Assembly (NCBI RefSeq): GCF_000238775.2
Contig: NZ_AFEJ02000001.1
Span: forward strand, 682,001-746,000
Direction: 5' to 3'
Origin: Acaryochloris sp. CCMEE 5410
GTDB lineage: Bacteria > Cyanobacteriota > Cyanobacteriia > Thermosynechococcales > Thermosynechococcaceae
DNA: 64,000 nt
Every line of letters starts with the position of its first letter. Within the stretch, counting starts at the first letter, position 1. Below the pieces are notes generated by a model. The model searched no databases. It was given only the letters and a program-made list of their open reading frames with translations, and was not told where the DNA came from. Of the stretch, positions 11,218 to 16,412 are shown piece after piece. A program made the translations under genes and the position numbers.

Positions 11218-12006
11218 TTATCTCTCATTTTTCAACATCACTGACTCCACAAACTGTTTCCGACAATCCTTGCAGACATAGCATTGTTGGTTTCGGCGTT
11301 TCCCATTTTTCGATAGTCGATCCGATTGGCAATGGGGGCATGTCATTACTTTCATTACATTTTGACTACGAGGAACCCCAACATGGGGTTCTAAATATGA
11401 CGTGAGTAGGCTCTCGATTTGCTCCGTTAGGCGTTGACGATGGGCGACGTCGCTTGTTCGCAAGGCGGATAAGATGACGGCATTACTGCTATGGACACTG
11501 ACTTCAGCTAGCAGATGACATTGGTCCGCTGGTAGAGATGGATTTCGCTCTCGCAGGATATTTGCTAAAAAGTTGATGGCCTCTTGGGTCATGCTTTCAT
11601 CAATGGATTGGAACATGTCCTGTGAGGTATAAAACTGAATAAAGATGATCCGCGATACGGGATGCTCAAACAGTTCAACGGCTGCAGTGATCAGCTGATG
11701 CATCATCTGCTGTAAGGGTAACTGCACCACCTCTGGGGTATTGAGTTTACTCCAAAAAGTTTTGACCCGCTCAATGTGGCGCAGCTCCATGGCGTTAAAG
11801 ATGGCGGCTTTATTGGGGAAAAACTGGTAGAGGGAGCCGACAGCAGTTCCGGCTTGGGCGGCAATTTGATGGGTAGTAGCCGCTTCATAACCGACTTGGT
11901 CAAAGACTTCTGCTGCCGCATTTAAAATTTTATCGACCCGGTCTTTGCCTCGTTGTTGTTTAGGCTGTCGACGAAGATGACTTGACGAATATGAATTATC
12001 TGTCAT
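11218..12006 (-). CDS. TetR-family regulator with C-terminal transposase-type zinc ribbon
   Basis: From the ATG at 12006 (MTDNSYSS) it encodes 262 residues. The longer frame to 12120 would run into the divergent Rieske gene and adds nothing TetR-like. The N-terminal HTH is clear (ILNAAAEVFDQVGYEAATTH and IAAQAGTAVGSLYQFFPNKA), followed by an all-helical ligand/dimer domain. After residue ~215 comes a second domain MTCPHCQSDRLSKNGKRRNQ and CYVCKDCRKQF, a CxxC..CxxC zinc ribbon like the N-terminus of IS1/InsA transposases. It is divergent from the Rieske gene with a 49-base gap, so it probably controls that gene and itself. The inducer is unknown. Confidence 0.85.
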   Translation of the reverse strand: MTDNSYSSSHLRRQPKQQRGKDRVDKILNAAAEVFDQVGYEAATTHQIAAQAGTAVGSLYQFFPNKAAIFNAMELRHIERVKTFWSKLNTPEVVQLPLQQMMHQLITAAVELFEHPVSRIIFIQFYTSQDMFQSIDESMTQEAINFLANILRERNPSLPADQCHLLAEVSVHSSNAVILSALRTSDVAHRQRLTEQIESLLTSYLEPHVGVPRSQNVMKVMTCPHCQSDRLSKNGKRRNQQCYVCKDCRKQFVESVMLKNER

Positions 12007-13107: not shown

Positions 13108-13176
13108 AACCACTGGTTTGAAGGGAATGAAAATACAGCCTTTCTGACCACACCTACATTGAGGAGAAAAATTCCC

Positions 13177-15705
13177 ATGGCATCCTCAGAGGACAAAAAG
13201 GCTTGGTTACAGGAGCATACTGATTTAAATATCTTTCCTGAAAAGATCCTGGATCGGCTGGCGAGAAAGGTAAAAGTACAGACCTTGGAAGCCAATCGGC
13301 GGTTAATTTTAGAGGATACGTTGCCGGATGCTGTATATATTTTGCGTCAAGGCCATCTTGAAAGTTATCACACCAGTTTGGTGGATACGGCCCAGGTCTG
13401 TAGCTTGTTACCGGGGGCGGTGCTACATCTATTCGATATCTTGCTTGAACAGCCGACGCTTCAAACCATCATTACTTTAACGGATTGCGAATTTTGGGTC
13501 ATTTCTAAACAAGACCTGCTCAAGATCGCGGGTGAATATCAAGACGTGACCCGAATTGTGTCGCAAAAGCTATCTAAGGATTTAGCCCATGTTTCACGGG
13601 AATTGGTGGCTGAACAGGAACGACAAGCCATCCTCAGACCCTATTTGGTCCCTAGAGTAAATAGGGGAATCGTCGGTTCTAGCCGCTATGCAAAGCGGTT
13701 GCGAGAACAGCTAAAAGAGGCAGCACGCACCCGCCATTCAGCGATTATCTTTGGTGAACCCGGTCTAGAGAAGGATAATGCTGCTGCTTTGATTCACTTT
13801 GGCTCAAACCAACGACGGGAGCCGATGGTGAAGATCAACTGTAATACGCTTCAAATCAGTGGGGCCGATTTGTTCGGTCGCGTGGGGGGTAAGCCTGGGC
13901 TGCTAGAAGCGGTAGGTGAGGGTACTGTTCTTCTCAATAATATTCAAGATCTGCCGCCTTCATTATGTCCAAAGCTACGACAGCTGTTAGAAACCCAAAC
14001 TTACTTACCGGTTCAAAGAGACGGGGCTGCTGTTAAGCCCCGAACCAGCAACGCTCGTTTAATCTTTACGGCTGAGAAAATTCAGCCGGAACTGGATGGG
14101 GAGATTTTTCATCGAATTAAGATACCGCCGTTGCGAGTCAGTAAGGCGGATGTGGGTGCCCAAGTTCAGTACTATATCAGTCTGCTTTCTAAAGAACAGG
14201 GTTTTGCTAAGCGCCAGCTGACCCCTGAAGCTTTACGACGACTCCAAAGCTACAATTATCCGGGCAATATTGTCGAGTTACATAGCTTGGTGGAGCGTGC
14301 GATCGCACAATCGTCTCCCAACGAAGATCTCACCGCAGAAATCTTTTGGGCGGCCCAAGATCGCCAGCAGCGCTTCCGCCTTAACCTGCTGAATGCTAAC
14401 CCTTGGTTGCGCCGCTTTCTCCGTAGTCCCTGGTGGCCCACCCGCATTAACTATGGATTAGTCTTACCCCTGTTTATTTTTGTGGTGATCATTTTATTTG
14501 TGGGGCCTCAGCAGCGAAGCCAGAACTTTGCCTTGAACTTATTTTGGGCTTGGTGGTGGCCGTTGATATTAATCGGTTTTCCCTTTGTGGGCCGCCTCTG
14601 GTGCTCTGTTTGTCCCTTTATGATTTGTGGTGAACTGCTGCAAAAACTGTCTTTGTGGCTGGTGCCTAGGCAGCTGCAGCGCTGGCCCCGGCAGCAGGCC
14701 GAGCAGTGGGGGGGCTGGTTCTTGTTTAGTCTGTTTGCTTTGATTTTTCTCTGGGAAGAGCTGTGGAATTTAGAAGATACGGCCTATCTGTCGAGTTGTC
14801 TGCTGCTGTTGATTACGGCGGGGGCAGTGATTTGTTCTCAGATTTTTGAACGGCGGTTTTGGTGTCGATATCTCTGTCCCATCGGGGGAATGAACGGGCT
14901 ATTTGCCAAACTGTCCATGACTGAGCTGAGGGCGCAACAAGGCACCTGTTCTGCTGAGTGCAGTACCTATCAATGCTATAAAGGTGGACCTGAAAAAGGA
15001 GAAGGACAGGAAACTGACGGTTGCCCTCTCTATTCCCATCCCGCCCAGTTGGAAGACAACCGAGACTGTGTGCTCTGTATGACCTGTTTACAGGCTTGCC
15101 CTCACCGCTCCGTTGAGTTCAATTTGCGTCCACCAGGCATTGAACTGTGGACGACCCATACCCCTCGGATCTATGAGGCCGCTCTGCTCCTACTGTTGCT
15201 AGGGGGGATATTCCTGCATCGATTACCCGAGCTGCAGACCTGGCTGGGGTTAGATTTGCAATTACAGCAATTCTCAGCTCATTTACTGGTGTCGGTGTTG
15301 GTGTTGGGAATCGCTGCTTTAATTCCTTTGCTCACCCATACAGTTCTATGTCGCATCAGTACTAAATTGAAACCTCGACCCTTTATCGAATTGGTCTATG
15401 GATATTTGCCTTTAGTTCTGGGTGGTACCTTAGCCCACTATTTAAGGTTGGGACTCACAGAAGCAGGCCAAATCCTTCCGGTCACCTGGGCCACGTTTGG
15501 TTTTTCTGGTGTCGGTCTACCCGTGTGGGTAGCTCATCCTGCGGTGGTTAGTTTTCTTCAGGGTTCTACGATATTGACGGCAGTTTTTTTGACATGGGTG
15601 CTAACTCAAAAAATTGCCCGGCAACCCATTACTGTTCTGCTGCCCCAGCATATGACCAGCCTAGGACTAGGATTCTGTTTATGGTCTGTGATTGTGGGGA
15701 TTTGA
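13177..15705 (+). CDS. Fusion: cyclic-nucleotide-binding domain, sigma54-type AAA domain, NapH-like 4Fe-4S membrane domain
   Basis: The start is ATG 13177, preceded by GAGGAG; an in-frame TTG at 13159 would overlap that site. 842 residues. About 20-140: a cNMP/CAP-like sensor domain. About 165-390: an AAA region related to sigma-54 activators (IVGSSRYAKRLREQLKEAAR, NYPGNIVELHSLVERA) but with a degraded Walker A (GEPGLEKDNAA) and no GAFTGA loop or HTH. From about 410: transmembrane helices with WCSVCPFMICG (near 474) and WCRYLCPIGG (near 561), a four-cysteine ferredoxin motif CVLCMTCLQACPH (near 630), then more helices. The back half resembles NapH/NosR/CcoG-type membrane electron carriers. 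It may be a redox device gated by a signal domain; the physiological role is unknown. It lies 122 bases after the Rieske gene, possibly supplying electrons to it. Confidence 0.8.
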   Translation: MASSEDKKAWLQEHTDLNIFPEKILDRLARKVKVQTLEANRRLILEDTLPDAVYILRQGHLESYHTSLVDTAQVCSLLPGAVLHLFDILLEQPTLQTIITLTDCEFWVISKQDLLKIAGEYQDVTRIVSQKLSKDLAHVSRELVAEQERQAILRPYLVPRVNRGIVGSSRYAKRLREQLKEAARTRHSAIIFGEPGLEKDNAAALIHFGSNQRREPMVKINCNTLQISGADLFGRVGGKPGLLEAVGEGTVLLNNIQDLPPSLCPKLRQLLETQTYLPVQRDGAAVKPRTSNARLIFTAEKIQPELDGEIFHRIKIPPLRVSKADVGAQVQYYISLLSKEQGFAKRQLTPEALRRLQSYNYPGNIVELHSLVERAIAQSSPNEDLTAEIFWAAQDRQQRFRLNLLNANPWLRRFLRSPWWPTRINYGLVLPLFIFVVIILFVGPQQRSQNFALNLFWAWWWPLILIGFPFVGRLWCSVCPFMICGELLQKLSLWLVPRQLQRWPRQQAEQWGGWFLFSLFALIFLWEELWNLEDTAYLSSCLLLLITAGAVICSQIFERRFWCRYLCPIGGMNGLFAKLSMTELRAQQGTCSAECSTYQCYKGGPEKGEGQETDGCPLYSHPAQLEDNRDCVLCMTCLQACPHRSVEFNLRPPGIELWTTHTPRIYEAALLLLLLGGIFLHRLPELQTWLGLDLQLQQFSAHLLVSVLVLGIAALIPLLTHTVLCRISTKLKPRPFIELVYGYLPLVLGGTLAHYLRLGLTEAGQILPVTWATFGFSGVGLPVWVAHPAVVSFLQGSTILTAVFLTWVLTQKIARQPITVLLPQHMTSLGLGFCLWSVIVGI

Positions 15706-15824: not shown

Positions 15825-16412
15825 ATGTGGAATCAACGTTACGCTAACGACGACTATATTTACGGAACGGAACCGAATTCCTTCCTGGCTGAACATGTAG
15901 ACATGCTCAGTAACCCAGTCTTATCCTTAGCGGAAGGAGAAGGACGGAATGCTGTATTTCTAGCCTCATTAGGATTTTCGGTCCTTGGCATTGATGGCTC
16001 AGAAGTGGGCCTTGCCAAAGCCCTCAAGCTGGCGCATGCCAAAGGCGTAGACATCCAAACAGAAGTGGCTGATCTTAGCCTGTTTGAACCACCAGCACAT
16101 CATTACGGATCGGTTATTTCAATCTCAGCCCATCTTCCCAGCACAGTTCGCAACAGGCTTTACCCATTAGTGGAGCAATGCCTAAAACCCAACGGTATCA
16201 TCCTGTTAGAGGCCTACTCAGAAAACCAAATTACTCGCGACACAGGCGGTCCAAAAGACCTTGATATGTTGATGACCTGTGCCAAAGTTGAACGTGAATT
16301 CCCCAACTGCGACCCCATACTCATGAGGGAACTGGAACGCGAAGTCCTTGAAGGGGAATATCACACTGGTATGGCCTCCGTCGTTCAGTTCATTGCCAGG
16401 AAGAGCGCTTAA
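15825..16412 (+). CDS. Class I SAM-dependent methyltransferase (TehB-like)
   Basis: 195 residues. It starts MWNQRYANDDYIYGTEPNSFL, typical of small TehB/thiopurine-type methyltransferases. Motif I is LSLAEGEGRNAVFLASLG, followed by the acidic VLGIDGSEVGLAKA and the post-motif NGIILLEAYSENQ. The family methylates thiol, selenium or tellurium compounds or small metabolites; the substrate is not determined. It stands alone, 119 bases after the fusion gene, and is convergent with another methyltransferase of a different subfamily. Confidence 0.8.
   Translation: MWNQRYANDDYIYGTEPNSFLAEHVDMLSNPVLSLAEGEGRNAVFLASLGFSVLGIDGSEVGLAKALKLAHAKGVDIQTEVADLSLFEPPAHHYGSVISISAHLPSTVRNRLYPLVEQCLKPNGIILLEAYSENQITRDTGGPKDLDMLMTCAKVEREFPNCDPILMRELEREVLEGEYHTGMASVVQFIARKSA

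Follow-up and report, generated by a model that had tools for sequence, protein, structure and literature searches.

We analysed a window of 64,000 nucleotides, the whole stretch of DNA taken from contig NZ_AFEJ02000001.1 of Acaryochloris sp. CCMEE 5410. Its open reading frames include a single uninterrupted chain of 842 residues at positions 13177-15705 of the forward strand, exactly where the original prediction had placed one protein combining a cNMP-type sensor domain, an AAA region and an iron-sulfur membrane part. Pfam searches recovered cNMP_binding at residues 35-118 (42.8 bits, cut-off 27.5), followed by Sigma54_activat at residues 165-300 (55 bits, cut-off 20.2) and AAA_lid_14 at residues 323-390, which we refer to together as the head. 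The membrane part comes after the lid and matched Fer4_5 (27.2 bits, cut-off 22); no Pfam family of HTH DNA-binding domains was matched in the 842-residue chain. An AlphaFold model predicted from an alignment of 36 sequences (mean pLDDT 83.9) has nine membrane helices after the AAA part, and its pTM of 0.55 leaves the placement of the head relative to the membrane part unsure. Within the family described below, the protein belongs to group A. The features are as follows:

13177-15705, + strand: whole gene, 842 residues, group A family member (open reading frame, homologue searches)
about 13161-13168, + strand: probable ribosome binding site GAGGAGAA, GAGGAG-type, preceding the ATG at 13177 (sequence)
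13279-13530, + strand: CRP-like fold (Pfam cNMP_binding, residues 35-118) lacking the phosphate-binding Arg motif (Pfam, alignment)
13669-14076, + strand: AAA core of the enhancer-binding-protein type, residues 165-300 (Pfam, structure overlay)
13753-13776, + strand: degenerate Walker A GEPGLEKD, residues 193-200, Lys199 invariant (alignment)
13936-13941, + strand: Asn254-Asn255 in place of the Walker B acids (alignment)
14143-14346, + strand: AAA lid, residues 323-390 (Pfam)
14431-14844, + strand: NapH-like module of four membrane helices, residues 419-556 (NCBIfam, AlphaFold)
14602-14616, + strand: CxxCP motif, residues 476-480 (alignment)
14863-14880, + strand: CxxxCP motif, residues 563-568 (alignment)
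14947-15027, + strand: first probable 4Fe-4S motif, C591/C595/C600/C616-P617 (alignment; stretch of low pLDDT)
15067-15102, + strand: probable ferredoxin-type 4Fe-4S motif, C631/C634/C637/C641-P642 (Pfam, alignment)
15169-15696, + strand: C-terminal membrane module of five helices, residues 665-840, without a Pfam family (AlphaFold)

Scans for promoters and terminators around the gene gave results at chance level only. Upstream, the reverse strand encodes a TetR-family regulator (11218-12003) whose C-terminus continues as a zinc-binding segment of the IS1/IS1595 type, giving the appearance that an insertion sequence has taken the place of its end; the same TetR/IS1-type reading frame is also found in a second Acaryochloris (L013). 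Directly downstream lies a TehB/TPMT-like methyltransferase at 15825-16412 (+).

A widespread family with a degenerate AAA head

Collinear full-length homologues with 54-89% identity were found across the cyanobacteria. Whole-genome searches, which had been proposed as a check on the architecture, detected full-length relatives in most sampled members of the host family and across the class. A scan of 84,980 species genomes yielded 380 confirmed relatives, and the best 80 of these 380 were all cyanobacterial; relatives from outside the cyanobacteria were sampled through plasmid records only. The single-chain fusion is thus real and widely conserved. It is also apparently unstudied, as we found no published description of the architecture in the open-access literature (most subscription journals lay outside this scope) and no mention of it in genome papers on sulfide and photosynthesis.

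Alignment and a tree of the membrane part, built with a quick maximum-likelihood method, divided the family into three groups. Group A, the type found in the window, shares about 60% identity with the window protein outside Acaryochloris. Group B has the same architecture and about 40% identity to group A, and group C, the small-genome family f2, lacks the CRP-like domain. Both A and B are present in the window genome, with the group B copy located at C6:144797-147340 (L093). Between Acaryochloris species, all domains are under purifying selection. The lowest dN/dS values were obtained for TM1-4 and for the Fe-S region (0.010-0.014), and the AAA core came next (0.036); dS exceeds 1 in this comparison, so that the ratios are approximate. 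Three family genes (L110, L128 and L121) are split by apparent frameshifts and are either pseudogenes or draft errors; the split copies L110 and L128 belong to group B and still adjoin a cysteine synthase gene.

In the AlphaFold model, the AAA part overlays NtrC1 (3m0e) with a TM score of 0.84 by target length, and its best sequence match in the PDB is VpsR. Like the sigma-54 activators NtrX, NtrC1, VpsR and FleQ, the family has the AAA core and lid fold, but it is devoid of a receiver domain. The GAFTGA loop that contacts sigma-54 was absent from 148 of 148 sequences examined, in line with the original description of a degenerate AAA region without GAFTGA or HTH. The P-loop of group A reads GEPGxxKD, its K199 being invariant, and 96 of 97 aligned group A rows have Asn-Asn where Walker B would have Asp-Glu. 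Enhancer-binding proteins (bEBPs) that lose the Walker B acids no longer hydrolyse nucleotide, although they may still bind it. The group A sequences therefore suggest that their AAA part is a conserved pseudo-ATPase, which may bind nucleotide through the retained P-loop lysine and should not hydrolyse it. In contrast, group B has an intact GxGKT P-loop and usually keeps the Walker B Asp, with only the Glu missing. One relative, G053 (L106:7143-10508), contains the AAA domain as a tandem duplicate within the chain, the first copy having a different P-loop, GEAGVGKV, and a Walker B motif with Asp.

The fold of CRP/FNR proteins was recovered at the N-terminus, as predicted, but none of the 103 aligned rows containing the CRP-like domain has the phosphate-binding Arg motif of the cNMP cassette. 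This makes classical binding of cAMP or cGMP unlikely, and only the structural half of the proposed cNMP-type sensor stands. The CRP-like domain is missing in group C and in some members of group A, whereas the AAA core was present in every intact cyanobacterial member seen.

The premise that cyanobacteria lack sigma-54 held: rpoN scored over the cut-off in none of 58 genomes of relatives and in none of the 291 genomes examined across the phylum, while the positive controls (E. coli, B. subtilis, Caulobacter and Bacteroides) were all detected. Within the cyanobacterial class, every Sigma54_activat match at E 1e-10 or better lay at the coordinates of a member of this membrane-protein family, and the other matches of that strength came solely from three genomes outside the class. 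Weak matches near 1e-8 occurred in frames of about 900 residues, which look like Clp ATPases. The confinement of strong matches to one family suggests that these cyanobacteria retained the AAA domain solely within this membrane protein. The three genomes outside the class, all within the phylum, carry strong enhancer-binding AAA domains with E values down to 1e-71 (G146:C1:127803-129032, G172:C5:12231-12731 and G078:C42:143772-144269) and no detectable rpoN. Separately, a 207-residue frame of a Nostoc-like genome (G163:C1:411956-412339) matched the last 128 positions of rpoN with 62.9 bits, below the cut-off; it is possibly a remnant or an acquired fragment.

The NapH-like membrane part and its conserved cysteines

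The membrane part had been described as NapH/NosR-like, with two CxxxCP motifs and one ferredoxin motif. The second cysteine pair has this form (C563-x3-C567-P), but the first is CxxCP (C476-x2-C479-P), and two probable 4Fe-4S motifs follow rather than one: C591-x3-C595-x4-C600-x15-C616-P and C631-x2-C634-x2-C637-x3-C641-P. These twelve cysteines are invariant in groups A, B and C. The full set of motifs was found in 145 of 148 sequences of at least 600 residues, and the three exceptions include one match outside the family and one head-only fragment. An extra group A copy (L134) has altered cysteine motifs.

NapH, NosR and RdhC (PceC) have in common a four-helix module carrying two CX3CP motifs, which matter for function through a chemistry that is unsettled, and NapH has been proposed to oxidise quinol (PMC5928378). 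The window protein has four such helices and two cysteine pairs ending in CP, only the second of them being CX3CP, and two 4Fe-4S motifs, predicted here from the cysteines at residues 591-616 and 631-641, are also a trait of NapH and NosR. The match to the NapH/MauN profile of NCBIfam at residues 470-649, however, scored 47.9 bits, far under the cut-off of 213. The family further differs from NapH/NosR/RdhC in the CxxCP form of its first motif, in having no FMN domain, and in the addition of the five-helix C-terminal module and the CRP-like/AAA head. Nor was a periplasmic reductase, NapG or an FMN-domain partner found as a conserved neighbour at 121 group A loci, though such a partner could be encoded at a distance. 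The missing FMN domain agrees with a survey in which flavinylated electron-transfer systems were strikingly underrepresented in cyanobacteria (PMC8238504). We regard the fusion as a variant of the NapH-like kind and not as a new kind of system. In the window genome, the group A and group B proteins are the only two Fer4_5 proteins.

Neither profile searches nor Foldseek found a solved structure resembling the membrane part, and no Pfam family was found for the five C-terminal helices. Recurring weak matches to TSPO (VIA-align Z of at most 7.1) were judged to be chance similarity among helical bundles and were rejected. A head-less counterpart is WP_027463891.1 of Deinococcus ficus, a stand-alone 4Fe-4S binding protein that aligns collinearly with the membrane part along its entire length (30% identity over 408 columns; hhalign E 6.8e-49). 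It differs by the absence of the CRP-like/AAA head, by the replacement of one CP proline and by its other neighbours. Considering that a complete membrane part occurs there without a head, the head is an addition.

Gene neighbourhoods of groups A and B

The original prediction tentatively assigned the electrons to the Rieske oxygenase encoded just upstream. This gene precedes group A in four Acaryochloris loci and is absent at a fifth (L005/L015), and at no other of about 120 loci was one found beside the family. A close Rieske homologue is missing from most group A genomes and is unlinked where both occur. All 10 genomes with such a homologue carry group A, but we did not take this as a link, as group A is present in most of the 58 genomes and four of the 10 are Acaryochloris. 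We therefore rejected the Rieske oxygenase as a general operon partner, since the arrangement is restricted to the Acaryochloris lineage. No neighbour of group A was conserved across the 121 loci; the commonest neighbour cluster occurred at 17 of them and at varying offsets.

The surroundings of group B are different. A cysteine synthase gene lies within 7 kb at 14 of 17 group B loci, mostly as the next gene, compared to 4 of 121 group A loci (Fisher p 3.6e-13, a value that overstates independence because the loci are related); there is none near the window gene. Group B loci also contain genes for rhodanese-like (5 of 17), nitronate-monooxygenase-type (5), SQR-like flavoprotein (3), DUF302 (3) and petC (3) products, none of which occurred at any group A locus. 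DsrE genes are found in these islands as well, and single loci hold ArsR-type regulators, a persulfide-dioxygenase-like enzyme, TauE, HdrB/C-like proteins and an extra psbA. Neighbours named without a family search were read from their sequences. The island of the window genome itself (C6:138000-154000, L093) encodes cysteine synthase, ArsR, a persulfide-dioxygenase-like enzyme and TauE, and plasmids of Aulosira laxa and Pseudanabaena galeata (L158, L159) bear group B islands that also include petC, psbA, rhodanese or DsrE. Members of the cluster of the TehB/TPMT-like methyltransferase adjoin group B copies in L100 and L110, perhaps by chance.

In cyanobacteria, sqr is known to cluster with arsR, and anoxygenic or micro-oxygenic psbA with sqr (PMC5061849). 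The coupling of group B to cysteine synthase and to sulfide/low-oxygen genes suggests that the redox work of the family is done when photosynthetic electron flow is upset by sulfur species or by a shortage of oxygen. For the window gene itself, such a role can only be guessed at.

A proposed membrane electron carrier with a regulatory head, and its alternatives

The original idea that the AAA part was reused as a regulatory or scaffold domain remains the most economical reading, as this part is degenerate, is not accompanied by an HTH and is attached to a membrane module of the electron-transfer type. Our best reading, to which we give an even chance, is that the protein is a single-chain membrane electron carrier, controlled or assembled by a non-hydrolysing regulatory head, and not a transcription factor. 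The NapH-like core, with its four helices, two cysteine pairs and two putative 4Fe-4S sites, would pass electrons together with the five-helix module. Ferredoxin or other cytosolic iron-sulfur partners would stand at one end of this path, and the quinone pool or a site on the far side of the membrane at the other, while the cytosolic head, possibly nucleotide-bound and non-hydrolysing, would set the state or the assembly of the carrier. The sequences themselves establish the order of the domains, the conserved cysteines, the lost GAFTGA and Walker B acids, the purifying selection, the lack of sigma-54 and the sulfur/low-oxygen setting of group B; occupancy of the clusters, quinone or ferredoxin as partners and gating by the head are what we infer.

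Support for a carrier comes from the twelve invariant cysteines, the strongest selection falling on TM1-4 and the Fe-S region, the NapH-like match and the head-less Deinococcus homologue. It also comes from the constrained AAA domain, kept even where the CRP-like domain is lost, with its dead Walker B and without GAFTGA, in genomes without sigma-54, and from the group B context (cysteine synthase, psbA, petC, DsrE, rhodanese, ArsR and SQR-like genes). Against it count the lack of conserved group A neighbours, which leaves no redox partner visible, the lack of a solved-structure relative and the low NapH score. Conservation alone, moreover, fits a head that controls the membrane part as well as one that reports on it.

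The latter possibility is a serious rival, and the sequences fit both. Control would then be reversed: the Fe-S membrane part would sense how far the quinone pool or sulfur/oxygen species are oxidised or reduced, and the head would be the output that binds a cytosolic partner, making the protein a sensor instead of a carrier. A head made of two regulatory folds, the stress-type islands of group B with their ArsR-type regulators and the solitary group A gene without a catalytic partner alongside are all consistent with this, and RdhC itself was originally proposed as a transcriptional regulator (PMC5928378). However, twelve invariant cysteines and nine helices exceed the needs of a simple sensor, a complete membrane part exists head-less in Deinococcus, and no DNA-binding domain is present, which together make a sensor possible but rather unlikely.

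A reductase or oxidase of copper or iron, serving import or detoxification like CcoG or FtrD and carrying a regulatory head, appears improbable. Rhizobia and azospirilla have FtrD-like proteins similar to the Fe-S half of the membrane part (a rhizobial one at hhalign E 4.8e-16), and the plasmid stretch encoding the head-less Deinococcus ficus relative includes genes for a heavy-metal P-type ATPase and a His-rich exported protein. But the FtrD match stops before the C-terminal helices, FtrD of the FtrABCD iron uptake system has no head, and the surroundings of groups A and B show no conserved genes for iron uptake or other metal transport. Far less probable still is a membrane-tethered activator of the sigma-54 type: although one record names the group B paralogue "nitrogen assimilation regulatory protein" and the AAA part matches NtrX/NtrC, the absence of rpoN over the cut-off in 291 genomes of the phylum, of GAFTGA, of Walker B acids from group A and of an HTH refutes this mechanism. 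A misjoining of two genes by assembly or reading, a concern raised from the outset to which only the two frameshifted draft-genome copies of group B lend any colour, is refuted by hundreds of independent genomes, many assembled as one contig, that encode the same collinear chain, and has practically no chance of being correct.

Returning to the electron carrier, a more far-reaching proposal can be made tentatively, and we think it somewhat less probable than its opposite: the enhancer-binding AAA domain may have survived in cyanobacteria without sigma-54 only as a non-hydrolysing, ligand-responsive gate on an Fe-S carrier, with one branch of the family dedicated to sulfide or low-oxygen conditions. 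The family is present in hundreds of cyanobacterial genomes, and the records examined call it a nitrogen regulator or name just its cNMP domain. Sulfide and low oxygen give experiments a direct way in through the paralogue linked to cysteine synthase, and the sulfide/low-oxygen island of group B is itself worth studying. If the proposal is true, the family would represent a class of AAA-controlled electron transport proteins. If the carrier reading alone is right, the protein takes part, so far unstudied, in electron flow near the plastoquinone/ferredoxin level. Its control head would then derive from a transcription-activator machine and would illustrate the fate of enhancer-binding AAA domains where a whole class lacks sigma-54.
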